From assembly GCF_001636405.1 (NCBI RefSeq), contig NZ_KV440950.1, positions 5,286,262 to 5,350,261 of the forward strand: DNA of 64,000 nucleotides, written 5' to 3'. The notes under the pieces are model-generated. The model saw only the letters and a list, made by a program, of their open reading frames with translations. It was not told the origin of the DNA and ran no database searches. The translations under genes were made by a program, and so were the position numbers. Source of the stretch: Peribacillus frigoritolerans (lineage in GTDB: Bacteria; Bacillota; Bacilli; Bacillales; DSM-1321). This document shows positions 11,729 through 49,016 of the stretch, one piece after another (the stretch's first letter is position 1; every line of letters begins with the position of its first letter).

Positions 11729-11767
11729 GAAAACAGCCCGATTCCTGAGGGGAATCGGGCTGTTTTC
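11729..11767. terminator. Bidirectional terminator between peptide gene and essA
   Basis: A 17-bp perfect stem (GAAAACAGCCCGATTCC and its complement) with a 5-nt loop has T4 tracts on both sides. It closes the plus-strand peptide gene and overlaps the last codon region of essA, ending the type VII operon. Confidence 0.9.
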
Positions 11768-12248
11768 ATTTTCGTTTAACCTCTCCATTCAGCTTCCCCA
11801 TTTTCGGGATAAGGATAAAAAACAAACAAACGACCAAAAGTGCCAAAACGATGCCGAGCAATATCGTCAGGTCAAAATTAAGCGAAGGCTCTGTTTCTTC
11901 TTCGTTTCTCGTTGGAATGCGGACCTCCGAGAATAATCCAAGCTGTTCTGATTTTGAAGCGATGGTATTATTTTGATTCTCCATTACAGGAGACTGAAAC
12001 AGTGAGTCCTTCACCGAGTCAATGGCATCATATTTCCCTCTTTCAAAAGTGAGGTCTTTTTGTTCTTCAGGCAATTTCCGCTTCTGTTCCAACAATCCTT
12101 CTTCATGGAAAAACTCCGTTTGAATATCAATATCGTTTTCTTGATATTCATTGGGCTCCACCATCGGTTCCTCTTCCGCCCCGCCATGAGGTGCATGGCT
12201 AAAAAACAGGATGAGCAAGACAGGCATTACGTATTTATTCCACTTCAT
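11766..12248 (-). CDS. essA: Type VII secretion membrane protein EssA (YueC)
   Basis: Last gene of the type VII secretion operon. 160 aa from the ATG at 12248. A signal-like hydrophobic N-terminus (KYVMPVLLILFFSHAPHGGA) is followed by a polar, acidic outside segment and one C-terminal membrane helix (TILLGIVLALLVVCLFFILI), then a basic tail. This matches EssA/YueC topology. The reading frame overlaps the end of esaA by 14 nt. A TTG at 12272 would add 8 residues before the signal and is less likely. Confidence 0.82.
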   Translation of the reverse strand: MKWNKYVMPVLLILFFSHAPHGGAEEEPMVEPNEYQENDIDIQTEFFHEEGLLEQKRKLPEEQKDLTFERGKYDAIDSVKDSLFQSPVMENQNNTIASKSEQLGLFSEVRIPTRNEEETEPSLNFDLTILLGIVLALLVVCLFFILIPKMGKLNGEVKRK

Positions 12249-19636: not shown

Positions 19637-19666
19637 TAAATCTCACCTCCGCAAAAGGCCCACTGC

Positions 19667-21010
19667 TCACTCTTTGCTTTTCTCTTTTTCTTCAGTTGAT
19701 TTTTTGGAGGAATCCTTACTTTCTTCTTTTCCCCCAGAAGCAGGTTCGTTTTCCGCTTCATCTTTTACAGCAGGTTTTGCTTCCTCTGCGCCTTTATCCT
19801 CTATATTCGGGTCTGTTGCAGCAGGGTTCTGATCTTGCTGTTCCTCCATTTGCTTATCCAATTCCTTTTTTTCCTTTTCATATTGGGACAGCTCGGTATC
19901 GACTTCTTTAATTTGCGTTTCCTTTTCTTCCCCAGATAGGCTATCGTCCAACTTAATCTGTTCTTTCTGGTTTACCAGCCCGTACATAATCAATTCGCGA
20001 TCCTCCATGATTCTCGCCAGATCGATCGCTTCCTCGCTCATTCCCCTGCCTATATAAATCCAATATAGGAGATACTGACTATCCGTTTGCAACGAGATTG
20101 CATTTTCCACATTTTTCCTAGCTACTCCCTCCAACGGTTCATAAGTGACGTAGGACTTCGCCAGTTCATATTGAACCACATATGGCATCTTTTTCGGATC
20201 GTAGTTTTCCAAACGGTCAATGACTTCACTGTATTTTTGTTTTAAGAAGCTTTCACCGCTTTCTACATATGCATCCTGCTTAGGTTGGGAGAAGAATAGT
20301 GTGTAAATCGCAAACAATAGCAGTGGCACGAGAACGATCACCGTACCCCAAAGTGTATAACGGCCCGTTTTCCATTTCTTTTCAGGGATATGTACAAATG
20401 CTTTTTCTTCCTTCTCTAAAGCTTCTATCCGGTTTTGAATGACCGTGGAAAGTTCATCCCAAGTCCCCGATGACAATATACTTTGTGATTCGTTCGATAG
20501 TTTCAGTGTTTTATGGTAAAGCAGATACTCTTCGAATGTATGCTGCCCATCCACAAGCGCCGAAATCGTTGCCTTCGTTTCTTTAAATAACTCATCTTGA
20601 TTATGCTCATAAGGAGGCAAACTGTCTTTTACGCCATAATGCAGGAAATATGGGGTCAAGCTTGAATCAAAAACGATATTTTCCGGACAAACGACTAGTT
20701 GCAGGCGATTCAATTCATGATTCCTTATTTTCTTTTGGATTTGATAAGACGATAACCATTTACTCAATGGATTTTTATCTTTAGCTTTGGAAAAAACAAA
20801 AAAAGAGGCTGGTGGATTTACTCTGATCTTCACCTCGTCCTCTGTCACCTCTATATGTTTCTGGAGAGCATCATCCGCTTCATGAATAAGCTGTAATTCC
20901 AGTGGGTCCTGCATCGATAGTTTTGCCCGTTGGAAAACGAACGAATGCCCCTTATCATCCTTCATCATTGCAGCTTCTGTTTTTTTCTCCAGATATGGTT
21001 TCTCATCCAT
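19667..21010 (-). CDS. essB: Type VII secretion protein EssB (YukC)
   Basis: 447 aa. An N-terminal cytosolic pseudokinase-like domain (about 1-215), one membrane helix (WGTVIVLVPLLLFAIYTLFF, about 223-242) and an extracellular helical domain lead to a long Glu/Lys/Ser-rich tail (last 70 residues). EssB forms the core complex with EssC. The start has an AAAGGAG site. Between esaB and essC, as in other Bacillus loci. Confidence 0.92.
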   Translation of the reverse strand: MDEKPYLEKKTEAAMMKDDKGHSFVFQRAKLSMQDPLELQLIHEADDALQKHIEVTEDEVKIRVNPPASFFVFSKAKDKNPLSKWLSSYQIQKKIRNHELNRLQLVVCPENIVFDSSLTPYFLHYGVKDSLPPYEHNQDELFKETKATISALVDGQHTFEEYLLYHKTLKLSNESQSILSSGTWDELSTVIQNRIEALEKEEKAFVHIPEKKWKTGRYTLWGTVIVLVPLLLFAIYTLFFSQPKQDAYVESGESFLKQKYSEVIDRLENYDPKKMPYVVQYELAKSYVTYEPLEGVARKNVENAISLQTDSQYLLYWIYIGRGMSEEAIDLARIMEDRELIMYGLVNQKEQIKLDDSLSGEEKETQIKEVDTELSQYEKEKKELDKQMEEQQDQNPAATDPNIEDKGAEEAKPAVKDEAENEPASGGKEESKDSSKKSTEEKEKSKE

Positions 21011-21080
21011 TTTATGTAACTCCTTTACCCCTGCTAAAGGGCTTTAGACTTTTTTCCTATAAAGAGTCCACACCTATCCA

Positions 21081-21329
21081 TTAGAGGATCTCAAGGCGGT
21101 CCCCCGTCGTAATTCCGCTATCAAGCAGGGTTTCATAACCTGAACATACGAACTCTTTATTCTGGACCCGCACCCAATAGCCTTCTTTAGGTGCACTGGC
21201 AATATCTTTTACCTGCCATATTATCTCCACAACCTTCTTGATGGAGCGGTAATTTGACACTTGCAAATCAAATACTTCCCCTGTATACCTGTTTAAATCG
21301 ATCGTTAGTTGAATATATATGGAATCCAC
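21081..21329 (-). CDS. esaB: Ubiquitin-like type VII secretion protein EsaB (YukD)
   Basis: Small cytosolic protein with a ubiquitin fold, required for type VII secretion. 82 aa; the body YIQLTIDLNRYTGEVFDLQV and end GITTGDRLEIL closely resemble YukD. The start is unclear. The only standard codon is the GTG at 21329, but the GAGGTG ribosome-site-like motif overlaps it. The homologous first residue falls at an ATA codon (21320), which is 6 nt after that motif. Confidence 0.88.
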   Translation of the reverse strand: MDSIYIQLTIDLNRYTGEVFDLQVSNYRSIKKVVEIIWQVKDIASAPKEGYWVRVQNKEFVCSGYETLLDSGITTGDRLEIL

Positions 21330-21341
21330 CTCTTTTAAAGC

Positions 21342-21383
21342 AAAAAAGCACCACGATCTTCAAAAAGAGTCGCGGCGCTTTTT
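21342..21383 (-). terminator. Attenuating terminator between esxA and esaB
   Basis: A stem of about 14 bp (AAAAAGCGCCGCGA paired with TCGTGGTGCTTTTTT, one or two wobbles) is followed by a U6 run, 33 nt after the esxA stop. It should let most transcripts end after esxA, giving more substrate than secretion machinery. Confidence 0.85.
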
Positions 21384-21415
21384 CCTAGAAATTCTTTTTC
21401 TCATTTACCTAATGA

Positions 21416-21706
21416 TTATCCGCGAATTTGACTAGCAATCTGATTATCTGTGTCTTCAAGGATTTGAGCTGATTTATTCAATTGTTGAGAAACTTCATTC
21501 AACAAGCGAGCCATATCCATGAATGAAGGCTTTAATTCTTCGTACTGACCTACGAAAGCCTCACTGGAAGAACCTTCCCAAATACCAGTTAAATGATCTC
21601 TCATTCTATCTAAACGACCAATCATATCAGTTACTTGTTGGCTCTCATTATCATATTGTCTAGCTACATCTTTCAGTTCCGAAGGTGTTACGCGAATTTG
21701 TGACAT
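21416..21706 (-). CDS. esxA: WXG100 family secreted protein EsxA (YukE)
   Basis: Secreted helical-hairpin protein and substrate of the type VII system. 96 aa with the WEG turn (W43-E44-G45) between two amphipathic helices. The C-terminal segment LEDTDNQIASQIRG closely matches the YukE end. The AAAGGAGG ribosome site is very strong. First gene of the operon; the downstream attenuator suggests it is the most highly expressed member. Confidence 0.95.
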   Translation of the reverse strand: MSQIRVTPSELKDVARQYDNESQQVTDMIGRLDRMRDHLTGIWEGSSSEAFVGQYEELKPSFMDMARLLNEVSQQLNKSAQILEDTDNQIASQIRG

Positions 21707-34302: not shown

Positions 34303-34428
34303 ATGTGGCAAACGATTGTTTCCTACCTACCAAAATGGCAGGTTTTTATACAGGCTTTCATTGTGTTTGTAATTCCGTATCTAATCGGCAAATTGTTTAA
34401 AGTGCTTCGCACCTCAAAGGATGAGTGA
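34303..34428 (+). CDS. 41-aa membrane protein ahead of the germinant receptor
   Basis: [20 protein letters not shown], a hydrophobic helix through [15 protein letters not shown], then a short charged tail. AGGGTG lies 6 nt before the ATG at 34303. Its stop overlaps the next ATG (TGATG), so it is translationally coupled to the receptor A subunit. Small accessory membrane proteins (D subunits) encoded with germinant receptors are known; this one is shorter and lies first in the operon, so the match is only by context. Confidence 0.6.
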
Positions 34429-35999
34429 TGATGATGAAAGAGTGGCTATCAAAGATTGGCAATAAAGGAAAAGATCCCGATAAAGACAAACAAGCACCTG
34501 CCTCACAAGATACAACGTGTCCGTTTACAGATAATCTTCATTTTAATCTTGAATGTCTTAAGCAAGAAATCGGCCATAATTGGGATGTCCATTTTCGGGA
34601 ATTTAATCTTGGGCGTACCGGTATACGCTCGGTTATCATTTTTGTGGATGGACTATCGGATAAAGATCTCATTGATAAGCATATTATGCCATCATTGATG
34701 GTTGATTTTTCAGCAGAATATAAACAGAACCTTCCCTACCTCAAAGGGAGCATTTCAAAAGAATTCATAAAAAATGAAGTGTTATCCATTAGTGAAATAG
34801 AAGCTGTCCGCTCCATTAAAGAGTTAGCATCTAAAGTACTAACAGGTTCTACCGCCCTTTTAATTGATGGGTCTTTGGATGCACTGCTCCTTGGAACTGC
34901 CAAACATAAAACAAGGGCAATTGAAGAGCCGGTATCAGAGGCACTAGTCAGAGGTCCCCGTGTCGGTTTCACTGAATCATTGAGTGATAATACATCTTTT
35001 TTAAGATGCAGTGGTGAAATCGAGAATTTATCGTTAGTAAAATTCCAAGTAGGAAAGCGTTCAAAAAAGGATTTGGTTGTCGCATACATAAAGGATATTG
35101 TTGATCCCGAATTAGTTCAAGAGGTGGAAAATCGAATTAAGAAAATTGATATTGATAGTGTTCCTGAATCAGGTTATGTAGAGCAGCTTATTGAAGATAA
35201 TTACCTTAGTCCTTTTCCGCAGGTACAGAATACAGAGCGTCCTGATCGCGTGGTCGCTGCTTTGATGGAAGGGCGAGTGGCCATCTTGTTAGATGGGACC
35301 CCTTTCGTTTTGATCGTTCCTGTTACCTTAAGCATGATGCTACAATCACCGGAAGATTATTATGAAAGGTGGATTCCGGGAACATTCATCCGTATGCTTC
35401 GTTACCTCGCAGCTATTCTGGCCCTTTTTACACCGTCGTTGTATATAGCTTTCATCTCATTTCATTCAGGATTGATTCCGACCAAACTGGCCATCTCCAT
35501 TATCGGAACCAGGTCCGGTGTTCCGTTTCCGGCACTTATCGAAGCATTATTCATGGAAATAGCCATTGAAATTTTGCGGGAAGCAGGACTGCGATTGCCT
35601 AAGCCAATCGGTCCAGCAATGGGAATTGTCGGCGGTTTAATCATTGGGGAAGCTGCTGTTCAGGCAGGGATCGTTAGTCCTGTTTTGGTGATTGTGGTAG
35701 CGTTAACCGCCATTTCATCATTTTCCATTCCGCACTATAGTATTGGGATTACATTACGGATGCTTCGTTTTCCCGCAATGATATGTGCTGCCACTTTTGG
35801 ATTATACGGGGTCATTCTCTTTTTCCTTTTAATGACCAGCCATTTAGTGAAATTAAAAAGCTTTGGTGTGCCTTACTTGAGTCCAGCCGTTCCTTATCGC
35901 TTAAGTGAGTGGAAAGACCTGATGGTCCGCATGCCGCTTATGATGATGAAACGCCGTCCAAAGATGTTGCATACAAAAAACCCCATACGTAAAGGATAA
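34428..35999 (+). CDS. Spore germination receptor subunit A (GerA family)
   Basis: 523 aa. A hydrophilic N-terminal domain (about 1-285), a segment [17 protein letters not shown] typical of GerA/SpoVAF proteins, and four to five membrane helices (about 305-475) precede a basic tail. It sits in the inner spore membrane and with subunits B and C senses small-molecule germinants. The germinant cannot be read from sequence. Start chosen at the first ATG after AAAGG (34428); further in-frame ATGs follow. Confidence 0.93.
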
Positions 36000-36025
36000 C
36001 CTATCGGTGAAAGGGTGGTTAAAGA

Positions 36026-37132
36026 ATGATTCTCAGTCCGAAAGACAAAATTACAACTCCTCAAGCAGCTGTCATTGTCATCAACTTCATACTCGGCACA
36101 GGATTGCTCACCCTACCCAGATCATCTACGGAGAAGGTACAAACACCAGATGCATGGATAAGCGTCATTTTAGGCGGAGTTATCACTATAACCGCTGGGC
36201 TGATCATGGTCAAATTAAGCCAACAGTTTTCCGAAAAGACCTTCTATCAATACATCAATGATATTGTTGGAAAATGGGTGGGCGGGTTACTGAGTTTAGT
36301 TGTAATCTGTTACTTTCTTACAACTTCCAGTTTTCAGATCCGTGCAATGGCGGAAGTAATAAGGTATTTACTTCTGGAGGGTACGCCTACTTGGGCAATT
36401 ATTATGATTTTCATGTGGGTAGGTCTTTATCTTATCATCGGCGGCATTAACCCGATCGCCCGTCTATTTGAAATTATCTTACCTTTGACAGTTATCCTTT
36501 TTTTGGTTGTTACCTTCATGAGCTTTAAAATATTCGAGATCGATAATCTGCGTCCGGTATTAGGAGAAGGAATCGTCCCTGTACTAAAAGGAGTAAAAAC
36601 AACGGCTCTCGCTTTTTCAGGGCCTGAAATCATGTTACTGCTTATTCCATTTATGAATTCACCAAAAAAAGCAGGAAAAGCCCTGCTTGTTGGAGTTTCC
36701 ATTCCATTGATTTTTTACGTGATAACGGTCGTAATGGTTATCGGGGCATTATCTATTGATGGAGTGGTCCTGAGAACATGGCCGACACTTGATCTTATCC
36801 GAAGTTTTGAAGTTGCCGGGTTGATCTTTGAACGGTTTGAATCTTTATTGCTCGTTGTCTGGATCATGCAAATATTCGCCACATTTACCATAACCTACTT
36901 TGCAGCCGCTTTAGGGCTAGCTCAACTTTCGAAAAAGAGCATTCACCCCTTCATGTTTGGCTTGCTTCCGGTTCTATACATCATTGCCATGGTTCCGAAA
37001 AATATGAATGACCTATTTAAAGTAGGGGATTTCGTCGGCAATGTCGCAATGTTTTTATTTGGTTTACTCCCGCTTCTACTGCTTATCATCTCAAGAATAA
37101 AGGGAGGGAAAAAACATGAAACAATCACATAG
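36026..37132 (+). CDS. Spore germination receptor subunit B (GerAB/ArcD/ProY family)
   Basis: 368 aa with ten predicted membrane helices. It begins ITTPQAAVIVINFILGTGLL, the APC-superfamily fold of germinant-binding B subunits. Follows the A gene by 26 nt and overlaps the C gene by 17 nt, the standard tricistronic layout. In this family the ligand is bound here. Confidence 0.93.
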   Translation: MILSPKDKITTPQAAVIVINFILGTGLLTLPRSSTEKVQTPDAWISVILGGVITITAGLIMVKLSQQFSEKTFYQYINDIVGKWVGGLLSLVVICYFLTTSSFQIRAMAEVIRYLLLEGTPTWAIIMIFMWVGLYLIIGGINPIARLFEIILPLTVILFLVVTFMSFKIFEIDNLRPVLGEGIVPVLKGVKTTALAFSGPEIMLLLIPFMNSPKKAGKALLVGVSIPLIFYVITVVMVIGALSIDGVVLRTWPTLDLIRSFEVAGLIFERFESLLLVVWIMQIFATFTITYFAAALGLAQLSKKSIHPFMFGLLPVLYIIAMVPKNMNDLFKVGDFVGNVAMFLFGLLPLLLLIISRIKGGKKHETIT

Positions 37133-38330
37133 CAATACACACCCCCTCTTCATTTCCCTCTCCGTTCTTTTGTTCTTATCCCTAACAGGATGCTGGAGCA
37201 GTCATGAAATTGAAGAGCAAAGTTTAGGCATAGGTTTGGCATTTGATAAAGCCAAGCAATCCTCCATCGAGAAAAAGTTAAACGAACAAGGGGGAGCTTA
37301 TTCAAAAAGGAACCTGATTACTACAACCTATCAATTTATCACTCCACAGGTAGCGAGTTCGACAACGAAACAATCCGGACCACAACAAAAATCTTATGTT
37401 AATGTTTCTGAAACTGGAGACTCCATGCATCAAATGGTTCGTGAATTATCATTGAGGAGTGAACAACCCGTAACCGCTCACCATATGAAAGTGGTTGTTA
37501 TCGGTGAAAATCTTGCAAGATCGTATAAGTTGGAACAATTACTTGATCAAAATCTACGGGAAAGTGAGCTTAGACCAAGCTGCCTTGTGCTCATCAGTAA
37601 AGGAAGAGCAAGCAATACACTGGAAACAAAGAAAGCAGGAGAAATTCCAGCGTTCCGTCTGGCTGGCATTGTAGAAAATGCCTATCGGACAACGAGGATA
37701 TTGCCCCCCATGTCACATATTAAAGTAGAAAGCAAGATCAAATCAGGGTCTAGTTTTCTGATGCAAAAAGTTCTATCAGCAGATGGGCAAGTCAAATTTG
37801 CCGGAGCTGCCGTAATCGATGGAAAGACGCACAAAATGACTGGTACTTTGAATGAGGAGGAACTGGAGGGCGTAACATGGATAACAGGTAAGGGAAAAGG
37901 CGGTGTAGTGAAAAGCTTTGATAAAGAAACCGGTCAGCCGATTGTATATGAAATAGAGACCATGAAAAGCAGTATAATACCACATGTTAAAAGAGACAGC
38001 ATTTCCTTTGATGTAAACATTGAATCAGTGGGGAGACTGTCTGAAAACTGGGTAGTTTCAGCAGGTACTTTTAAAAATGAATTTCTAAAAAATGCAGAAA
38101 AATCATCTGAAGAAGAAGTAAAACGCTTGGTGGGAAATGTATTGGAAAAAATGCAAAAAGAATATAAAGCGGACGTTGCTGGCTTCGGAAATCGTTTGAG
38201 AATTGAGCACCCCAAAGTATGGAATAAGGTCAAAAAGGATTGGGACCAAAGATTTAGTGAGGCTCCAATCAATTACGATGTAAAATTAACTATTAATGAT
38301 TATGGAACTACAGGAGGATCAAAGAAGTGA
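37116..38330 (+). CDS. Spore germination receptor subunit C (Ger(x)C lipoprotein)
   Basis: 404 aa lipoprotein. Signal sequence and lipobox LTGC (Cys about 25), followed by the typical CWSSHEIEEQSLGIGLAFDK start of Ger(x)C proteins. The rest is the three-subdomain soluble part, ending with VWNKVKKDWDQRFSEAPINYDV. Anchored on the outer face of the inner spore membrane and needed for receptor function. Confidence 0.93.
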   Translation: MKQSHSNTHPLFISLSVLLFLSLTGCWSSHEIEEQSLGIGLAFDKAKQSSIEKKLNEQGGAYSKRNLITTTYQFITPQVASSTTKQSGPQQKSYVNVSETGDSMHQMVRELSLRSEQPVTAHHMKVVVIGENLARSYKLEQLLDQNLRESELRPSCLVLISKGRASNTLETKKAGEIPAFRLAGIVENAYRTTRILPPMSHIKVESKIKSGSSFLMQKVLSADGQVKFAGAAVIDGKTHKMTGTLNEEELEGVTWITGKGKGGVVKSFDKETGQPIVYEIETMKSSIIPHVKRDSISFDVNIESVGRLSENWVVSAGTFKNEFLKNAEKSSEEEVKRLVGNVLEKMQKEYKADVAGFGNRLRIEHPKVWNKVKKDWDQRFSEAPINYDVKLTINDYGTTGGSKK

Positions 38331-38448: not shown

Positions 38449-41400
38449 TCAGCTTAATTCCACTTTAGTAATTTTACTTAAATGGACCTCATTTAAAATC
38501 GACTCTTCGTCTGCAACAACATATTCGATGACAGTCGGGCTTATGGTCCGAATATAAACAAAAGCTGAATCATCTACATGCTCAATTCGAAGCTTTTTCC
38601 TCTGTGCCTGCTTAATGTCAAGCTGGTTGGTACTAGCTTCCGGCAGGCTTGTGTAATAAATTTCAAAATCTTCTTCTGATGCATCAATGAAAAGATGCCA
38701 TTTGTTATACTCTTCTTCTTGATCAATCATTGTTTTTAATTTCCCTTTTCTCCCGATGCCAAGAAAATACTTGAACTTTGATTCCCCATTCACCATATCG
38801 CGGTCAATAACTTTTATACTTCCGCCTTTTCTGCTTTGTACAAGCCCAAAGGCAACGCCTGTTTTTCCTGTAGGGGCTGTTATTATATCCCGGTTAACCA
38901 CTCTGTTTCTCTCTTCTTGCTTTAAATAAGCGCCTTCTGTCCCCAGTGGCGGGAGAATCTCAAAAAGGTCACTAGACACTTCTCCCCAATTTTGAGTGTT
39001 CTGCACTTCCCTTTCAATCCATTTATTAAATAGACTCATGACAACCGGGGATTTACTTGAATTACCCGCAAGCAGTATATTCACTTTATTAATTTTACTG
39101 TGTACTGACCGGGCAAAAGCGCGCCGTAGAGACTCAAAGAAATTTTTAATGCCTTTGTCGATTCTTTCCTCAATCAACTGTTCCATTTCATCTTGATCGA
39201 TCAATAGTTCCACATTGAGTTTGGCGCGGCCGGCTTTGTCAAATAAATCTGCCCGGATCATGCCTTTTCCAAACTGTTCTTCATACCGTTCATGTCTTTC
39301 CCAAAGCGGCCTTAATTTTTCCACCAATTGTTTCGTATTTAAATAGGATTCTTGTGACTCATTAATCAATGTTTCACTTCCGGGAAATTTCACACATTCC
39401 GCTGGGAGGGTAAAAGGAATGTTTAGCTCACGCATTGTTCTTTGGTTGTTTTTAAACACTTGGAACGCCAAAAGCTCCAGCATGTTCTCACCGCCTAAAT
39501 ACCGATCCCCGCCCGCTGCAAAATGCTCAATGACATAATCGTATCTGCTTTCTTTCAAGCCCGCTTCACGCCAAATCCCAAAATCAAAATCTGTCGTTCC
39601 TCCACCAAAGTCAAACACACCGTAGTACGTTTTTTCACCCTCTTCCGGTTCAAATCCGTATTCCTGTAACGCACAAACGGCATAGGCAGCAGGTTCACTC
39701 GCCCCAGCGGTGACACGAAACTTTTTCATTAATTCTTCATCCTGCTGAATCGGCATAGGAAGTGTCTTTTTTAAACCACATTCAAAACACGTTAGAATTT
39801 TTTCCCTTACCTCTTTTTCATACGTCACCGGGAAAGATAAGGTGTAATCGAGGTAAATTCCATTGTTCTGGTTATTGATATACAAACCGAGGTAATAGGC
39901 GTACAACTCGATTGGGTTGATTTCCTGATCGGTTAAGTCCAAAAAGGAACGCAGTACAACGGCATATCCCCTCTTGTCTTTTAATCGGAGTTCGTTATTC
40001 TTTTCCCCAGCCCACTGCTTTAGATTATTCAATATGGAATAATAATGGTCACTCTTTCCATTCATCAAGTTGTTAAGTGCATTGTGGGAAACCGTCACAT
40101 CCTGCCACCTTGTATCCGGTCTTCCTTTTTTTTCTTGATATAGCTCCAGGAAATGTTCTAAATCAATAAATTCAATCACAGTTGGATTTTCATAATGCCA
40201 GTCTTGTACTTCCGTGTTTAGGTAGCCAACCCCAATACGCATGGGAAGAGTAACATCACTTTCTTCTTGATGAACGACAACTGTACTTTTCGTTCCAAAA
40301 TCTATGCCGACTATACCGTCCTCCCTAATATCCATTTTAGGGTTTCTGGCCATTATTTCTTCGTTCAGCTTTATCGTTAAAGGTTTTTCATCAGAGGTGA
40401 CAGGCCATAAATCCCAATGTCCCCGGTTTGGATCTGTTAGCATCTTATCATCATATGTATCAATATCAGCCCTTACTTTTTCAGAGTTTAAAAGCTTCTC
40501 ATAAAACGTGTTGGAATCGATAGCGATCGATGGCAATTCTTTAAGAAAACTTTCATGATCTAATTCCTTTAATTGATACAATTCCAGCAAATAATCATAC
40601 TCCTTCTGGCGTTCTGCGCTTAATCCGCTTGGAACTAACCGGTTTTCCAGCCAAAGATGGAGAGCCTTTCGGTCATTGATTTCAAAAGCATTTTCCCCAT
40701 TTAAACGGAAGACGGGAACGAAAAATCCTTTTCCCAGCAAATTGTTTTTTTGATTTACTACATCGTAGCTTTGAATGTCGTACCCGTTGGATTTAAACGC
40801 TATCGATTTAGAAGAGTTAGCCGTTTGATTGGCAAATATCCTTGAAATGGAAGGATTTTTATTCGCGGAATAATCGTCTAAAGTTAATATTCTCTTATAT
40901 ACAGGGTGATCGGTTGTATTGAAACTTTTCGCAGCCTCTTCCCTCGTCATGGCATCACCTTTAAAACCGGAAACGTCCAGATGCTTTTTGTAGTCAAAAT
41001 CCTCGTCCATTAATTCATAGTATTTTCTATAAGGAAATACCGCTGCGATGTTGTGATCATATATAATATTCCCATTATTCATGTAAACCCATCTGGAACG
41101 GAGCATCTTTTTAATGTCTTGAAAGAAGCTCGCTTCATCCTTGAAGAAGGTTTCTTCTGCACTCTGATATAAATGGCTGATCAACGATCTCACTTCTTTA
41201 TAAGTCATTGAAATGGCAGAGACCGGAACGGTTTGGGAATCCGTTGAGAATAGAACCTGCTCTTCGTTCTTATTCATTAAGTATATGGAACTGTCTATGT
41301 TATTTTTTTCAGCTAAGCTTGTTACGTTCTCAATCGACTCTTTATCTTCCTTCGTTTCTTGTTTTTCAACTTCTTTTAATAATTCTTCAGAAATTGCATC

Positions 41401-41634
41401 ACCAGAATCCAAATAACATATCAGGTCACCAATCTTGACTATAGTGTCCTCCGCTACGTTCAATTCTTTAAGGGTACCTTCTTTTTCTGAAAAGAGGTCA
41501 AATTCGATGCCCTCACAGCTGAATTTGGCTAAGCTTTCGCCCACCGTAATATACTCGCCTGGCTGTTTATACCATTGCACAAGAAGGATTTTTTCAATGC
41601 CTTCTTCAATCTCTGGGATAATAATCGATGTCAT
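38449..41634 (-). CDS. Hsp70-like ATPase with N-terminal degenerate lipoyl-type domain
   Basis: 1061 aa, much longer than DnaK (about 610). Residues 1-75 look like a biotinyl/lipoyl domain (IPEIEEGIEKILLVQWYKQP, GDLICYLD), but the hairpin that normally holds the modified lysine reads SCEGIEF, with no lysine. Residues 80-430 match nothing I know. An Hsp70/actin-type ATPase follows: phosphate-1 GIVGIDFGTKST (D445), phosphate-2 FDFGGGTTDFDF (G677-G679), adenosine motif LLAGNSSKSP (G857). A mostly beta C-terminal part (about 900-1061) ends it. AAAGGAG precedes the ATG. It follows a GrpE-like gene by 37 nt. Client and role unknown. Confidence 0.82.
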   Translation of the reverse strand: MTSIIIPEIEEGIEKILLVQWYKQPGEYITVGESLAKFSCEGIEFDLFSEKEGTLKELNVAEDTIVKIGDLICYLDSGDAISEELLKEVEKQETKEDKESIENVTSLAEKNNIDSSIYLMNKNEEQVLFSTDSQTVPVSAISMTYKEVRSLISHLYQSAEETFFKDEASFFQDIKKMLRSRWVYMNNGNIIYDHNIAAVFPYRKYYELMDEDFDYKKHLDVSGFKGDAMTREEAAKSFNTTDHPVYKRILTLDDYSANKNPSISRIFANQTANSSKSIAFKSNGYDIQSYDVVNQKNNLLGKGFFVPVFRLNGENAFEINDRKALHLWLENRLVPSGLSAERQKEYDYLLELYQLKELDHESFLKELPSIAIDSNTFYEKLLNSEKVRADIDTYDDKMLTDPNRGHWDLWPVTSDEKPLTIKLNEEIMARNPKMDIREDGIVGIDFGTKSTVVVHQEESDVTLPMRIGVGYLNTEVQDWHYENPTVIEFIDLEHFLELYQEKKGRPDTRWQDVTVSHNALNNLMNGKSDHYYSILNNLKQWAGEKNNELRLKDKRGYAVVLRSFLDLTDQEINPIELYAYYLGLYINNQNNGIYLDYTLSFPVTYEKEVREKILTCFECGLKKTLPMPIQQDEELMKKFRVTAGASEPAAYAVCALQEYGFEPEEGEKTYYGVFDFGGGTTDFDFGIWREAGLKESRYDYVIEHFAAGGDRYLGGENMLELLAFQVFKNNQRTMRELNIPFTLPAECVKFPGSETLINESQESYLNTKQLVEKLRPLWERHERYEEQFGKGMIRADLFDKAGRAKLNVELLIDQDEMEQLIEERIDKGIKNFFESLRRAFARSVHSKINKVNILLAGNSSKSPVVMSLFNKWIEREVQNTQNWGEVSSDLFEILPPLGTEGAYLKQEERNRVVNRDIITAPTGKTGVAFGLVQSRKGGSIKVIDRDMVNGESKFKYFLGIGRKGKLKTMIDQEEEYNKWHLFIDASEEDFEIYYTSLPEASTNQLDIKQAQRKKLRIEHVDDSAFVYIRTISPTVIEYVVADEESILNEVHLSKITKVELS

Positions 41635-41671
41635 TGTATTTCTCCTTTACTATCATTCTCTGTTTCGCCTG

Positions 41672-42364
41672 CTAGATTCTCACAACGGTTTTTTTAATGG
41701 TTTTACCATTAATGCTTATATATCCTGGCAGCAGGACTTCCATGATGTTCCCGGATATTTTGCTATTGAGGGCCCTTATGTACAAGTCCTCCCTGAAGAC
41801 CTCATTCATTTTCACTTCCTGTATTTTATATAAAGGGGTATCGTATGTTTTACTGTACTCTTGAAAGAAATACAGAAAAAGGGCGAGCAAAGTCTCTCTT
41901 TCCTGCTCCCGTCCTTCCATAATCTCGTTTTTGATAAAATCCCACAAAGATGAAATGTTTTCATATTGTACGCCACAGACTATAAATTCCTGCACGGAAC
42001 CGCCCTTGAAGATTCCTTTCAAGGAACTTTTAGTGGTTTCGGATAATTGTTGAACAGCTTCGTAAAGTTTTTCTGCTTCCCGATAGTCCGCTCTTCTCTT
42101 TTGCAATTCATTATAATAGGATTCCATTTTCTCATTCAGATGGTGGATCATTATTTGGTACTCACTAATTTCTGCTTTTTTCGAGGCAAGCTCTTGTTGA
42201 AGTTTTGCTATTTCATTTTCTTTTTCTTTCAGCAGTTCCTTATGCTCCCCCGACTGACTATACGAGCCCGCATCTGCTATTGCTTGTATCTTTTCAATGA
42301 CTCTTTCGTCTTGTAGGGAAACCATTAATGCCTCAATAAAACCATCATCCCATTCCTTATTCAT
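41672..42364 (-). CDS. GrpE-like coiled-coil protein, partner of the Hsp70-like ATPase
   Basis: 230 aa. Residues about 30-120 are a long coiled coil (LLKEKENEIAKLQQELASKK, EKMESYYNELQKRRADY). A helical part follows. The end, GNIMEVLLPGYISINGKTI plus KKTVVRI, has the pattern of the GrpE beta-wing (GTVVEVLQKGY..NGRVLRPAMVKV). Being next to an Hsp70-like gene, a nucleotide-exchange role is the natural inference. I chose the ATG at 42364 with AAAGGAG; a frame to 42493 adds 43 residues without a ribosome site. It is not the housekeeping GrpE, which lies with dnaK-dnaJ. Confidence 0.72.
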   Translation of the reverse strand: MNKEWDDGFIEALMVSLQDERVIEKIQAIADAGSYSQSGEHKELLKEKENEIAKLQQELASKKAEISEYQIMIHHLNEKMESYYNELQKRRADYREAEKLYEAVQQLSETTKSSLKGIFKGGSVQEFIVCGVQYENISSLWDFIKNEIMEGREQERETLLALFLYFFQEYSKTYDTPLYKIQEVKMNEVFREDLYIRALNSKISGNIMEVLLPGYISINGKTIKKTVVRI

Positions 42365-42513
42365 CTTTACACTCCTTTCAAAAGTGTTAACCAATCGCTC
42401 TGTATATGCATGAAAGAGTTCCCTTTTTTCGCCATAGAAAAATCCCCTCCCAGATAGACTGTTAGGAGAATACAACCATAACTTATATACCAAGATATCA
42501 GTGGTGAGATTAC

Positions 42514-42946: not shown

Positions 42947-42992
42947 ACTGTAGACAAACTCGATGAAAATCGAGTTTGTCTACAGTTTTTTT
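42947..42992 (+). terminator. Very strong plus-strand terminator
   Basis: 18-bp perfect stem (ACTGTAGACAAACTCGAT and its complement, GAAA loop) followed by TTTTTTT. No plus-strand gene ends nearby. It may be part of a repeat or insertion-sequence remnant that continues to 43237. Confidence 0.75.
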
Positions 42993-43011
42993 GCTTGTAC
43001 AAATTTAGACG

Positions 43012-43048
43012 TTGATTGGAACGTAGGCACTCGCTCCAATCAACTATG
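43012..43048. repeat. Degenerate copy of the dispersed intergenic repeat
   Basis: Contains GACGTTGATTGGAACG and GGCACTCGCTCCAATCAAC. GTTGATTGGA and TCCAATCAAC form an inverted repeat, and the AGGCACTCGC string is the complement of GCGAGTGCCT in the repeat at 11365-11460. Confidence 0.5.
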
Positions 43049-43901: not shown

Positions 43902-45305
43902 TCACTGCCAGTTCGTGTGGAAAACCCCTGCTAAATCACGTCGTTCATAGGTATGCGCACCAAAATAATCACGTTGTGCTTGCAAAAGGTTAGCATTTGA
44001 GATGCCTGTTCGATAACTATCGTAATAAGTAAGTGAAGAGCCTAAACATGGAAACGAGATGCCGGAATTTATTCCCTCACAGACTACCTTTCGCAATCCC
44101 GCCTGGTACTTTGCTACCTTTTCAGCGAAATATGGTGAAATCAATAAATTGGCCAGATTTGGCTGCTCTTGATAGGCTTCGCTAATGACGTTTAAAAATT
44201 CTGCCCGAATGATGCAGCCGCCGCGGAAAATAAGCGCAATATCCTTCAAAGGCAAATCCCAGCCGTTAAGTTCAGAACTCATTTTATATTGAGTGAAACC
44301 TTGCGCGTATGCACAAACCTTTCCCATATATAATGCTTGCCTAATATAGTCAATCCACTCATTTTTATCTAATTTTTGCTGAACGTTCTCAGGCCCTGTT
44401 AGAATGTTTTCCGCATGAACCCGTTCTTCTTTTAGAGCGGAAATGTAGCGCGCAAACAAAGACTCTGTAATGATCGATGCTGGTATTCCGTTATCAATCG
44501 CTTGCATGCTGGTCCATTTTCCTGTGCCTTTTTGCCCTGCTTTATCGAGAATCACATCGATCAATGGTAAGCCCGTTACTTCATCTTTTTTCCTTAAGAT
44601 TTCGGCCGTGATTTCGATTAAATAACTTTTCAGTTCGCCTTGATTCCATGTTTCAAAGATGTCAGCAATTTCATTAACCTCTAAATGCAATTTTTCTCTT
44701 AAAAATGTATATGCTTCGGCGATTAATTGCATATCTGCATACTCAATCCCGTTATGTACCATTTTCACAAAATGACCTGCCCCTTTTGGACCGATATAGG
44801 TACAGCAAGGAGCATCATTTACTTTGGCTGCGATTTTTGTCAGGATTGGAGCTACTTTTTCATAGGCGTCCTTATCTCCTCCTGGCATGATTGAAGGTCC
44901 TTTTAACGCACCGACTTCCCCACCGGAAATACCAATTCCTACATAACTGAATCCTTTAGATTTCAATTCATCATATCTGCGTTCAGTATCTTCGTAATGG
45001 GAGTTACCGCCGTCCATGATAATATCGCCTGATTCAAGATGAGGCAGTAATGAAGTGATCACCGAGTCGATCGCTTTACCCGCTGTCACCATCAGAAAAA
45101 TCTTTCTTGGCGTTTCCAGAGACTGAACGAAATCTTGGATTTCGTAATACGGATGGATTGACTGACCGTCCAATTCAGCAACAAGCTGATCCGTTAAATC
45201 TCTTGTGTAATTATAGACAGCTACTTTTTCTCCTTTATTAGCCATATTTAACGCGATATTACTGCCCATTACCCCTAAACCAATGACACCAATTGTATTG
45301 AACAT
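43902..45305 (-). CDS. gntZ: 6-phosphogluconate dehydrogenase (decarboxylating)
   Basis: Oxidises 6-phosphogluconate to ribulose 5-phosphate and CO2. 467 aa. Nucleotide-binding loop GVIGLGVMGSNIA at the N-terminus, the family segment IMDGGNSHYEDTERRYDEL and the substrate/catalytic block GPKGAGHFVKMVHNGIEY (about 176-193). Last gene of gntR-gntK-gntP-gntZ, so it links gluconate uptake to the pentose phosphate pathway. A second copy elsewhere in the genome is usual. The cofactor (NADP or NAD) cannot be fixed by eye. Confidence 0.95.
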   Translation of the reverse strand: MFNTIGVIGLGVMGSNIALNMANKGEKVAVYNYTRDLTDQLVAELDGQSIHPYYEIQDFVQSLETPRKIFLMVTAGKAIDSVITSLLPHLESGDIIMDGGNSHYEDTERRYDELKSKGFSYVGIGISGGEVGALKGPSIMPGGDKDAYEKVAPILTKIAAKVNDAPCCTYIGPKGAGHFVKMVHNGIEYADMQLIAEAYTFLREKLHLEVNEIADIFETWNQGELKSYLIEITAEILRKKDEVTGLPLIDVILDKAGQKGTGKWTSMQAIDNGIPASIITESLFARYISALKEERVHAENILTGPENVQQKLDKNEWIDYIRQALYMGKVCAYAQGFTQYKMSSELNGWDLPLKDIALIFRGGCIIRAEFLNVISEAYQEQPNLANLLISPYFAEKVAKYQAGLRKVVCEGINSGISFPCLGSSLTYYDSYRTGISNANLLQAQRDYFGAHTYERRDLAGVFHTNWQ

Positions 45306-45336
45306 TATTTCTGCTCCTTCTTATGTAAGAATAATA

Positions 45337-45374
45337 GGCAGTAAATCCCTGCCATAAGTCGGGGATTTACTGCC
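45337..45374 (-). other. Hairpin between gntP and gntZ
   Basis: A 14-bp stem with one mismatch (GGCAGTAAATCCC / GGGATTTACTGCC) in the 77-nt gap, without a clear U-run. It may adjust gntZ expression or protect the upstream message. Confidence 0.55.
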
Positions 45375-45382
45375 GGGAAAGC

Positions 45383-46729
45383 CTATACAAATAAGCTTAG
45401 TAATAGAATGAATCCTAATCCAGCCACTGATATGATCGTCTCAAGCAAAGTCCATGTTGCGAATGTTTCTTTCATGCTTAAGCCAAAATACTCTTTAAAC
45501 ATCCAGAAACCAGCATCGTTAACGTGTGAAGCGATTAAACTTCCCGCTCCTGTAGCAAGTACGACCAGAGCAAGGTTAACGTCCGTCTGACCTAACATCG
45601 GAATAACCAAACCAGCTGTCGTCAAGGCAGCAACTGTAGCAGATCCCAATGAAATACGCAGGATTGCCGCGATGATCCAGGCAAGCAGGATTGGTGATAA
45701 TGATGTTCCTTTGAATAATTCAGCTACATAGTCACCTACACCGCCATCGATCAATACTTGTTTGAAGGCTCCTCCGCCCCCAATGATCAAGAGCATCATT
45801 CCGATATGCAGGATCGCTGATGTACAAGATTCCATAATATCCTTCATTGGAATCTTTCTTGCCACTCCCATTGAATAGACCGCAAATAATAAGGAAAGCA
45901 ACATGGAAGTACCGGCTTCACCAATAAAACGGATAGCGGCCAGTAAACCATTATCTTCAAATCCCATCGTTTTTTGCATCAAAGTGATGATTGTAGCAAT
46001 TGACATTAATATAACCGGAAGTAATGCAGTAAATACACTGATTCCAAATCCAGGTGTTTCTTCAAGTTTAAAAGATTTTTGTTCCCCTAATGAGGCAATG
46101 CTGCCTGTTTTCGTAAATGATTCAGGTACTAATCTTTTCGCTATCTTCGTAAATACTGGTCCAGCTAAAATAACGGTTGGAACTGCAATGATGAAGCCGT
46201 AAAGTAAAACTTGACCAATGTCTGCGCCATATTCACCAGCGATGACGGTTGGTCCTGGGTGCGGCGGTAAGAAACCGTGTGTTACGGATAATGCCGCCAC
46301 CATTGGAATGCCAAGATACAATATCGAAACTTTTAATTCTCTTGAAATCGCAAATACGATTGGAATCAATAATACTAATCCCACTTCAAAAAATAATGCG
46401 ATACCGATAATGAATGATGCTGCCACGACTGCCCATTGAATATTCTTTTCACCGAATTTCTTAACAAGGGTCATGGCAATGCGTTGCGCTCCGCCCGAAT
46501 CTGCGATCAACTTACCTAACATCGCCCCAAGTCCAAAGATTAACGCTAAGTGGCCGAGTGTTCCGCCTAATCCAGCTTCAATGGTTTTGACAATTCCGTC
46601 AAGCGGCATCCCAAGTGCTAAAGCCACTCCAAACGATACAATGATCAAGGAAATAAAGGTGTTTAATTTTAAGCCCATTATTAAAATTAATAAAGCGACA
46701 ATTCCTAAAGCGACAATGACTAATGGCAT
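45383..46729 (-). CDS. gntP: Gluconate permease GntP
   Basis: Proton-coupled gluconate importer of the GntP family. 448 aa, about 12-14 membrane helices. Family segments include GLGGTLGHLALIFGLGAMLG, GIPMVAALSVTHGFLPPHPGP (about 142-162) and SLIASHVNDAGFWMFKEYFG near the C-terminus. Third gene of the operon, 18 nt after gntK. Paralogues in the family carry other sugar acids, but the operon fixes gluconate as substrate. Confidence 0.95.
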   Translation of the reverse strand: MPLVIVALGIVALLILIMGLKLNTFISLIIVSFGVALALGMPLDGIVKTIEAGLGGTLGHLALIFGLGAMLGKLIADSGGAQRIAMTLVKKFGEKNIQWAVVAASFIIGIALFFEVGLVLLIPIVFAISRELKVSILYLGIPMVAALSVTHGFLPPHPGPTVIAGEYGADIGQVLLYGFIIAVPTVILAGPVFTKIAKRLVPESFTKTGSIASLGEQKSFKLEETPGFGISVFTALLPVILMSIATIITLMQKTMGFEDNGLLAAIRFIGEAGTSMLLSLLFAVYSMGVARKIPMKDIMESCTSAILHIGMMLLIIGGGGAFKQVLIDGGVGDYVAELFKGTSLSPILLAWIIAAILRISLGSATVAALTTAGLVIPMLGQTDVNLALVVLATGAGSLIASHVNDAGFWMFKEYFGLSMKETFATWTLLETIISVAGLGFILLLSLFV

Positions 46730-46747
46730 TGTAATCCCCCCATGTCT

Positions 46748-48292
46748 TTACTTTGCAGCATTTATTAAGTTTCTTTGGTAATTCGCAATCTGTGTATATT
46801 CGTTTTCCAATACCCTTGATAGGTTAATGAAAATCGGCAGCAGCTGCCTGTATTCATTTACAGAATCAGCTTTCGGTGTGTGCTTGTGGGTATTGCCTAT
46901 CATTTCAGAAACCACTTCGAAGGAATCAATTTCCCCAGTTGCATATAACCCTAATATACAAGCACCAAGGCACGAACTTTCGTAGCTTTCTGGAACCACG
47001 ACTTCCGATTCGAAGATATCGGACATCATTTGTCGCCAAACATCCGACCTTGCGAATCCTCCCGTAGCTTGAATTCGGGTCACGGGACCGTCCATGCATT
47101 CGGTTAAGGCCAAAAATACGGTGTATAAATTGTAAATGACTCCCTCTAGCGCCGCTCGAATCATATGTTCTTTCTTATGCGACAGCGTTAATCCGAAAAA
47201 TGAACCCCTTACGTCCGGATTCCATAATGGTGCACGTTCACCTGCAAGATATGGATGGAATAACAATCCATCAGCGCCCGGTCTTACCCGTTCGGCAATC
47301 TTGGTCAAGACTTCATAAGCGTCGATTCCGAGTCTTTTAGCTGTTTCCACCTCGGAAGAAGCAAATTCATCGCGAATCCAGCGAAGGACCATCCCCCCAT
47401 TGTTTACCGGCCCGCCAATCACCCAATGCTTTTCCGTTAAGGCATAGCAAAAGATTCTTCCTTTTTCGTCTGTTTTCGGTTCGTCAATAATTGTCCGAAT
47501 CGCACCGCTTGTCCCGATCGTGACAGCGATTTCACCTTTCCGGATAGCGTTTACACCTAGATTTGAAAGGACACCATCACTTGCCCCAATGACAAATGGT
47601 GTTTGTGGGTCAATCCCGATCTGTTTGGCTAAATCCGCGTCACAGTTGTTAAAGGTCTTTGTTGTTGGTACGAGTTCAGATAATTGATCACGCGTTACTC
47701 CAGCAATTCTTAGGGCTTCCTCATCCCAATCCAAGTTTTTGAGATTCAACATGCCCATGGATGAAGCAAGGGAATAATCGACAACGTATTGATCAAAGAA
47801 CTTTTTAAAGATATATTCTTTAATCCCGATATACTTTTTAACATTGGTTGCGATCTCCGGGTGATCATTCACGATCCAGGTAATCTTGGATAATGGTGAC
47901 ATCGGGTGAATCGGTGTTCCGGTTCGCTTGTAAACTTCATGCCCATCTAATTCATCCTTTATTTTATGGGCCCAAGCTTCACTGCGATTATCTGCCCAAG
48001 TGATGCAAGAGGTTAGCGGCTGGTCGTTTTCATCCATAGCTATAACACTATGCATCGCACTGCTAAATGAAATAAATGATGGTTTTTTATCTGGATGCTG
48101 CTTCGTTATATTTGAAAAGGCTTTCAGAACAGCCTGGAAAATCTCCTCAGGGTCTTGTTCCGCCGTTGTCATATCCGGTGTGTAAAGAGGATAGCCAATA
48201 TTCTCTTGCTGGATGACATCGCCTTTTTTCGTGAATAATACAGCTTTTGTACTTGTTGTACCGATGTCTACTCCTAACATATAGCTAGTCAT
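46748..48292 (-). CDS. gntK: Gluconokinase
   Basis: Phosphorylates gluconate to 6-phosphogluconate. 514 aa, FGGY carbohydrate kinase. N-terminal LGVDIGTTSTKAVLF; the second lobe has EIAVTIGTSGAIR and the C-terminal ATP-site segment RIQATGGFARSDVWRQ. The ATG at 48292 matches the B. subtilis N-terminus (MTSYMLG.DIGTTSTK). It overlaps the gntR stop by 8 nt and reuses AAAGGAG inside gntR as ribosome site; the longer frame to 48376 lies within gntR. Confidence 0.95.
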   Translation of the reverse strand: MTSYMLGVDIGTTSTKAVLFTKKGDVIQQENIGYPLYTPDMTTAEQDPEEIFQAVLKAFSNITKQHPDKKPSFISFSSAMHSVIAMDENDQPLTSCITWADNRSEAWAHKIKDELDGHEVYKRTGTPIHPMSPLSKITWIVNDHPEIATNVKKYIGIKEYIFKKFFDQYVVDYSLASSMGMLNLKNLDWDEEALRIAGVTRDQLSELVPTTKTFNNCDADLAKQIGIDPQTPFVIGASDGVLSNLGVNAIRKGEIAVTIGTSGAIRTIIDEPKTDEKGRIFCYALTEKHWVIGGPVNNGGMVLRWIRDEFASSEVETAKRLGIDAYEVLTKIAERVRPGADGLLFHPYLAGERAPLWNPDVRGSFFGLTLSHKKEHMIRAALEGVIYNLYTVFLALTECMDGPVTRIQATGGFARSDVWRQMMSDIFESEVVVPESYESSCLGACILGLYATGEIDSFEVVSEMIGNTHKHTPKADSVNEYRQLLPIFINLSRVLENEYTQIANYQRNLINAAK

Positions 48293-49016
48293 TTTCTTGT
48301 TCGACTCCTTTTGAAAGCATCTGTTGAGCCATCCATAAGTCTTCAACTTTTCCTTGAACATCATCAAAGTTTTCATGTAACGACTTAATCATGATGTCTC
48401 GATCTTTTGTTTTGATCGCATCAATATACAGCTGATGATTATTTATGATCCGTGTAAAGTCTTCATACTTTTCTTTAAAACGGCTGCGCATGGATAGAAG
48501 AATCAAACTTTCCATTACAGGTTTTAAATTATCCCAGATCATCAGGATGTAGGAATGATCGATGGAGCGAATGATCGTTTCGTGGAATAGAACATCCTGA
48601 TAGGAAAACTCATCCGCATCCAGGTATTTTATGGACACTTTCATCATTCCCAATATTTTACTAAGTTCCATTACTAATTCATTCGTGTTCATCCTCACTA
48701 GACGTTCAAATACAAACGTTTCAATGAGAATACGTACATCATAAATTTCTGCATACTTTTTTTCTGTTAAACCAATGACAACCGCACCCATTCTTTCTAA
48801 TCGGATGATATTTTCAGAGGCCAGTATTTTTAACGCTTCACGAACGGGTGAGCGGCTTACGCCGAAATCAGCAGCTAATTTATTTTCAGAAAGGATGGCA
48901 CCGCTTTCAATCATCCCCGAAATAATACGCATTCTAAGCTCGGATGTAACGCGATCGCCAGCTGAAGCTTTTGAAAGCCATTTTACAGGATAAAGAAATT
49001 CCTTTGATTCAGCCAT
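48285..49016 (-). CDS. gntR: Gluconate operon repressor GntR
   Basis: Repressor of its own operon, released by gluconate. 243 aa, the same length as B. subtilis GntR. Winged helix with ENKLAADFGVSRSPVREALK (about 43-62), then an all-helical FCD effector domain (about 90-225). First gene of the gnt operon; a matching operator lies 30 nt upstream of its start. Confidence 0.95.
   Translation of the reverse strand: MAESKEFLYPVKWLSKASAGDRVTSELRMRIISGMIESGAILSENKLAADFGVSRSPVREALKILASENIIRLERMGAVVIGLTEKKYAEIYDVRILIETFVFERLVRMNTNELVMELSKILGMMKVSIKYLDADEFSYQDVLFHETIIRSIDHSYILMIWDNLKPVMESLILLSMRSRFKEKYEDFTRIINNHQLYIDAIKTKDRDIMIKSLHENFDDVQGKVEDLWMAQQMLSKGVEQEND

Follow-up and report, generated by a model that had tools for sequence, protein, structure and literature searches.

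We analysed a window of 64,000 nt of Peribacillus frigoritolerans DNA (GCF_001636405.1, contig NZ_KV440950.1, positions 5,286,262-5,350,261 of the forward strand) in which two adjacent genes encode a 1061-residue Hsp70-type protein, P0001, and, just upstream of it, a 230-residue GrpE-like partner (Table 1). The open reading frames (ORFs) and the 37-nt gap between the genes are as the preliminary description of this DNA had given them, and across 13 sequences the gap measures 28-43 nt. When these 13 sequences, the window included, were aligned, the ribosome-binding site of the partner and the position of its coding start were well conserved; an upstream regulatory element was sought in the same alignment, and conservation was confined to the ribosome-binding site. 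A search with PF01025 found one ordinary grpE in the genome, adjoined by the ordinary dnaK. Thus, the window pair is an extra one.

The same description had called the larger product an Hsp70-fold ATPase with a lysine-less lipoyl-type domain at its N-terminus and the smaller one a coiled coil ending in a GrpE-like beta-wing, with no J-domain gene nearby, and each of these points was borne out. As a single sequence, P0001 had no match to Pfam HSP70 (PF00012) at E ≤ 1; one relative scored 15.7 bits with that model, below its cut-off of 20.6, and the NCBIfam matches of P0001 to HscA (E = 3.8e-5) and DnaK (E = 3e-4) were both far under the curated cut-offs. Profiles placed the protein more firmly. 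A 10-member profile retrieved DnaK first from the PDB (E = 2.9e-6), all 58 of the 58 chains listed at E ≤ 0.1 were DnaK or other Hsp70s, and the 62-member family profile matched a 26-member DnaK profile at 95.6%. The phosphate-1, phosphate-2 and adenosine motifs are present in order, and the 11 active-site positions that we checked are invariant in 62/62 sequences.

The C-terminal stretch of the partner matched the GrpE beta-wing over 46 columns in a profile comparison (96.0%, E = 3.9e-9), as against at most 1.3% for 23 unrelated families and at most 1.1% for 20 column-shuffled GrpE profiles. Pfam GrpE did not match the single partner sequence at E ≤ 1, and the matches of that sequence were weak and mostly to coiled coils. 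Judged from its wing, the partner would exchange nucleotide on its Hsp70. No J-domain motif occurred in any of 60 loci of the family, although the same search found one in 25 of 28 dnaK loci used as a positive control.

At the N-terminus, residues 4-75 of P0001 match PF00364 (Biotin_lipoyl; E = 3.8e-7, 30.3 bits against a cut-off of 22.1). The nearest relatives of this head are dehydrogenase E2 proteins, of 2-oxoglutarate dehydrogenase in NCBIfam and of pyruvate dehydrogenase in the PDB. At the aligned attachment position, lysine is present in three of the genome's own E2-like proteins, whereas the 13 lipoyl-clade sequences (window included) have glycine in nine, aspartate in three, glutamate in one and lysine in none. 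The ATPase had the lowest median dN/dS (0.065, taken like the others from pairs with 0.05 < dS < 2), followed by the C-terminus (0.115), residues 131-436 (0.13), the head (0.18, with 74 of 78 pairs usable) and the linker (0.37). The lipoyl-type domain is therefore not decaying, and purifying selection keeps the lysine-less head. Among the 31 N-terminal rows of the family, PF00364 matched four, which equals the number of untrimmed Bacillales rows there; the table of these matches does not name the rows, and the window row had its lipoyl part trimmed off. Among the family members examined, those with a lipoyl head all belonged to the Bacillales branch.

Table 1. Positions, in the window, of the two genes of the pair and of the parts of their products.
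Feature	Coordinates	Strand	Basis or remark
Gene for the 230-residue GrpE-like partner	41672..42364	-	ORF reading, profile match; ATG at 42364
Ribosome-binding site of the partner (AAAGGAGT)	42371..42378	-	Sole upstream element kept in the alignment
Partner residues 186-230, GrpE-type beta-wing	41675..41809	-	hhalign 96.0%, controls ≤1.3%
Gene for the 1061-residue Hsp70-type protein (P0001)	38449..41634	-	ORF reading, domain matches
P0001 residues 1-78, lipoyl-type domain	41401..41634	-	PF00364 above cut-off; median dN/dS 0.18
Codon of G42, the lysine attachment position	41509..41511	-	Column G/D/E in 13/13; aligned to the K of E2-like proteins
P0001 residues 79-130, fast-evolving linker	41245..41400	-	Mean identity 56%, median dN/dS 0.37
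P0001 residues 131-436, N-region common to 24 wider-family sequences	40327..41244	-	Profile match; Lcl_C-type collinearity in Acinetobacter, relation not significant
P0001 residues 437-935, Hsp70-type nucleotide-binding domain (IDFGTKS, SEPAA, FDFGGGTTDFD, LGGE, LAGNSS)	38830..40326	-	Profiles; dN/dS 0.065
P0001 residues 936-1061, C-terminal region where a beta-type substrate-binding domain would lie	38452..38829	-	No significant relation to DnaK; length leaves no room for a helical lid as well

Between head and ATPase, the preliminary description had seen about 350 residues matching nothing. This does not hold: residues 131-436 match 24 wider-family sequences in a profile comparison (100%, E = 1e-45). 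Two Acinetobacter relatives (2 of 31 rows) also match Lcl_C (DUF1566-type) at residues 180-330, collinearly and with a best E of 2.5e-7, but at 28.6 and 29.5 bits both fall below the cut-off of 34.9. In profile comparison Lcl_C reached 1.0% with the lipoyl clade and 0.2% with the other 24 sequences, values not above those of controls (2.2%).

The two genes occur together, as had been supposed. Within the genus, the Hsp70 gene was found in 13 of 36 genomes, interrupted in one of them (G024), and the partner in the same 13. A genome collection yielded 13 Bacillales loci (Peribacillus, Domibacillus, Lysinibacillus and Bacillus sp.), with the partner upstream in 13/13; one of these loci, L016, is broken into shorter frames. 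The flanks differ between Peribacillus, Domibacillus and Lysinibacillus, and since the surroundings in the latter two are different, the unit is the two genes alone. Beyond these genera, a profile search of 348 genomes of the phylum, among them that of the window, found a relative in five, and in one class, probably Negativicutes, 57 of 350 genomes had one (an overlapping search of 300 genomes gave 45/300). Plasmid records with relatives numbered 2 of 72,556, from Acinetobacter piscicola and a cat Helicobacter. A search of viral contigs with P0001 found no relative; the profile found four remote Hsp70-like loci there, which the family model scored at 16-18 bits in three and not at all in the fourth. 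Neither the phage records nor, in a DNA search, the E. coli genomes gave a match.

To describe the neighbourhoods of the wider family, we used 46 loci (6 + 40 picked for diversity, rather than all hits; several are short contigs), and the counts below are raw counts in these chosen loci. The partner is present in 25 of the 46, directly upstream of an Hsp70 in 24, and it accompanies 6/6 VgrG-type and 11/15 HerA-type loci. In the most frequent arrangement (15/46) a HerA/FtsK-type ATPase of about 1090 residues is encoded directly downstream (14 loci) or, in Acinetobacter, upstream. In 14 loci this ATPase is accompanied by a protein with a glycine/serine-rich hydrophobic N-terminus, often starting MGFW or MGWF. 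Relatives of the ATPase also occur elsewhere. In Photobacterium one lies beside a DUF2357 gene, near csm6, and on E. coli and Exiguobacterium plasmids they adjoin genes annotated as HNH nuclease and SMI1/KNR4; the Hsp70 profile had no match on those plasmid stretches. On the E. coli plasmid L128 (4691-13090), two dynamin-family genes precede those for the HerA-type ATPase, an HNH nuclease and SMI1/KNR4. The dynamin genes stand at the position that the GrpE/Hsp70 pair has in relatives, which may mean that the one module can replace the other; the Acinetobacter plasmid (L032) carries both.

In a second arrangement (6/46) a VgrG-like gene lies downstream, and DUF4280 and Imm11-type proteins are encoded immediately after the Hsp70 in five of the six. 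One such locus was scanned, and the others were assigned to it by clustering; in it Phage_base_V, DUF4280 and Imm11 scored above their cut-offs, AHH nuclease just below and TIGR03361 below. The third arrangement was seen once, on the Helicobacter plasmid, where one strand encodes in succession the partner, a split Hsp70, a 213-residue protein, a WXG100-like protein (below cut-off), a WHH nuclease (above cut-off), SMI1/KNR4, a 77-residue protein and FtsK/SpoIIIE. The Hsp70 there (L033, 6125-8739) is split into two overlapping frames. PMC11090510 reports CoCoNuT genes in Helicobacter that fall into small pieces when read with the standard code, and the two may be the same phenomenon. The other wider loci are stand-alone or of different kinds.

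In a tree of 62 sequences (midpoint root only, several long branches; L033 and L048 left out), the HerA-type, VgrG-type and 13 lipoyl-clade sequences form separate groups, and the lipoyl and VgrG clades come together with support of 99/89. Outside these groups stand the two Acinetobacter sequences and three that are very divergent. A further, highly divergent branch (L102, L114 and L116; tree branch 3.78) has recurring neighbour clusters, c32, c33 and c41-c44. Two sets of orphans are nested in the larger groups, nine proteins of one genus within the HerA group and six short ones within the VgrG group. In both sets the loci are without a partner and the N-region is reduced to its last part, a pattern that hints at joint action of N-region and partner without proving it. 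Scored with a strict lipoyl-clade model, the early N-region and the partner were both present for 14 of 56 proteins and both absent for 26, with the N-region only in four and the partner only in 12 (p = 0.0016, not corrected for kinship); the two orphan sets show the link more plainly. In 20 genomes whose Hsp70 is an orphan, a search for the partner at other loci, which had no positive control, found none. Stand-alone relatives of 885-910 residues without a partner are L047, L091, L093, L097, L099, L101, L103, L105 and L106. These nine, from nine genomes of one genus, sit at one apparent housekeeping locus, possibly as a domesticated form.

With moderate confidence, we read the pair as a dedicated Hsp70/exchange-factor machine derived from conflict (toxin-delivery) loci and fitted with an unmodified, lipoyl-derived docking head. 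In this machine, given the folds that the profiles indicate, the 1061-residue protein would bind ATP and grip a client, and the coiled-coil partner would open the nucleotide cleft with its GrpE-type wing. Because relatives often lie directly upstream of three unlike delivery or conflict modules (the third seen once), the ancestral machine most likely held, primed or loaded toxins or components of delivery systems. The Bacillales pair stands alone and, on this reading, has gained its lipoyl-type domain, whose lysine is absent yet which selection keeps. This head most likely serves as an unmodified docking surface that chooses a client encoded elsewhere, and the N-terminal parts differ between branches, as would be expected of a head that selects a client or site. 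The preliminary description had thought of a biotin/lipoyl enzyme as one possible client. Apart from the head of the Hsp70 itself, neither the flanks of the 13 loci nor the window yielded an E2-like gene, and the neighbourhoods of the relatives point to toxin-delivery or other conflict modules.

Several results weigh against this interpretation. The equivalent of DnaK K70 is lysine in 3/62 sequences and in none of the lipoyl clade, whose 13 members have L or F there (in an alignment of moderate confidence at that place). The C-terminal 126 residues are collinear with the beta substrate-binding domain of DnaK at a probability of 1.2%, and P0001 ends where the helical lid would start. Since this lysine is mostly absent and the match to the substrate-binding domain is not significant, chaperone action can be proposed only by inference. 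The private chaperone machine of the preliminary description survives as a dedicated Hsp70/GrpE-type pair with a conserved, unmodifiable head, while a canonical Hsp70 cycle for P0001 is uncertain. In addition, 21 of the 46 wider loci have no recognisable partner, and the 15 orphan Hsp70s without one, in two clades, mean that not every member needs it. The small protein that follows the HerA-type ATPase has weak matches to phage tape-measure families (E = 8e-4). Nine cluster profiles of the HerA-type and VgrG-type arrangements, each of which matched its own loci as a control, found no HerA-, spike-, toxin- or immunity-type gene in the 13 Bacillales flanks or the window, and DUF4280 was found in 0/36 genus genomes in a search without a positive control. 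Neighbourhood by itself does not prove that the Hsp70 handles a toxin.

A broader version of this proposal is doubtful, if possible. It holds that one GrpE-like/Hsp70 family is a swappable ATP engine of weapon delivery, placed before a VgrG-type spike, a HerA/EccE3-type pump or a WXG100/FtsK-type secretion system and fitted with exchangeable heads that choose the cargo. The Bacillales branch, its head made from a lipoyl domain that lost the lysine, would serve a cargo or secretion system encoded elsewhere, possibly the type VII system of the window.

Among known systems, DnaK-GrpE has the same Hsp70-type nucleotide-binding domain, and a coiled coil with a GrpE-type beta-wing is encoded just upstream, as in the genome's own grpE-dnaK. 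In contrast to it, the window pair has no J-domain motif nearby, no lysine at the place of K70 and no room for a lid, and it has an added N-region and lipoyl-type head. Hsp70s with GrpE, and the Hsp70-like CnuD, are already in print as parts of predicted conflict systems (PMC7159879 and PMC11090510). CnuD (CnuCD) of Type III CoCoNuT resembles our family as an Hsp70-like protein with a degenerate nucleotide site in a conflict operon (PMC11090510). The same paper also describes a CoCoNuT extension that consists of a HerA-superfamily (EccE3-like) ATPase and a small helical protein (PMC11090510), and these resemble the ATPase and small protein beside our relatives. The two ATPases are probably the same, as is supported by the place of the relative in Photobacterium, by DUF2357 and csm6. 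Unlike CoCoNuT, our family has a GrpE-like partner, and the word GrpE is absent from the main text of PMC11090510. In GAP1-N2 GTPase systems, as PMC7159879 describes them, an Hsp70 and GrpE are also encoded together in a predicted conflict system, but that variant has GTPases, GAP1 and a DnaJ fused to FNIII repeats, whereas our 60 loci lack a J-domain motif. Among 30 locus proteins of the relatives scanned by Pfam (Hsp70s included, one of them twice), none matched McrB or DUF2357 (CnuC). SrfB and SrfC are Hsp70-like and dynamin-like proteins, and the large Hsp70-type protein near a dynamin-like gene on the Acinetobacter plasmid recalls them; P0001, however, matched no SrfB family at E ≤ 1. A literature search, which covered few subscription papers, found no description of this Hsp70 family or its GrpE-like partner, of an Hsp70/GrpE pair in toxin delivery or with a lipoyl domain, of the family's position ahead of modules of the VgrG, HerA or WXG100 type, or of an Hsp70 that bears a lysine-less lipoyl head.

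The alternative that survives best, though we think it rather unlikely, is anti-phage defence, in which the pair would sense viral or aberrant RNA or protein and the toxins and HEPN/dynamin proteins of the relatives would be intracellular effectors. Just such a sensor of viral or aberrant RNA or protein has been proposed for CnuD, whose Hsp70 site is also degenerate (PMC11090510). The patchy occurrence (13/36), the relatives on plasmids, one of them beside annotated HEPN, dynamin and integrase genes, and the Photobacterium neighbourhood of the HerA-type ATPase are all consistent with defence. Against this, the family profile matched no ORF in that 20-kb Photobacterium stretch, no PADLOC family matched the Hsp70 at E ≤ 1, and the partner's PADLOC matches were weak and lay over the coiled coil (best LmuB, E = 2.7e-4). 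Finally, a VgrG-like spike with immunity genes suits delivery better than intracellular suicide.

It is improbable that the pair serves one particular host machine, such as lipoyl enzymes or the window's type VII secretion system, as its housekeeping or stress chaperone, even though the head is nearest to dehydrogenase E2 proteins and the ATPase is strongly constrained (dN/dS 0.065). The secretion cluster, of the T7SSb type, occupies 11766-21706 on the reverse strand, about 17 kb from the pair, and includes EssA (PF10661), an EssC-like FtsK protein (1493 residues) and YukC/EssB (PF10140); a 984-residue protein without a Pfam match we take to be EsaA/YueB-like, and small ORFs in the cluster are presumably YukD-like and WXG100-like. 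Its nearness to the pair may be plain synteny. The pair is absent from 23 of the 36 genus genomes, and the T7SS proteins of the window had no match in the sequence (up to 10 kb) on either side of the 13 Bacillales loci, a result to which only Domibacillus and Lysinibacillus contribute, since 10-kb Peribacillus flanks would not reach the T7SS. In the same flanks the E2 proteins matched only the Hsp70's own head, and because the upstream region is not conserved, no shared stress promoter was seen. An actin-like assembly protein, with an ATPase that polymerises and a coiled coil that regulates the filaments, would fit the mostly missing K70 equivalent, the long coiled coil of the partner and the 1.2% match to the substrate-binding domain, but is very improbable given that every listed PDB chain is DnaK or another Hsp70 and that the partner has a GrpE wing.

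If the reading of a dedicated machine from conflict loci is right, an Hsp70 family that has an exchange factor of its own and no J-proteins encoded nearby would act in toxin delivery, where Hsp70s are not expected as a core part, and a lipoyl domain would have been reused purely for docking. In its Bacillales form, which occurs in soil bacteria, the unit comprises just the two genes, so the question of its client can be addressed directly.

In the window, the pair lies between what we take, from the ORF reading, to be a gerABC-like spore germination operon (34425-38330, on the opposite strand) and, on the other side, a presumed gluconate operon (43902-49016). In Domibacillus and Lysinibacillus, neither operon adjoins the pair. 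A 22-codon ORF at 42367-42435, with a likely ribosome-binding site of its own, stops just ahead of the partner start, and a stretch resembling it was seen by eye in L006, L008 and L015 of the alignment only. Farther upstream, the intergenic sequence holds two inverted repeats, at 42947-42986 and 43011-43044, which may be a terminator or a mobile remnant; the first consists of two perfect 18-nt arms with 4 nt between them.

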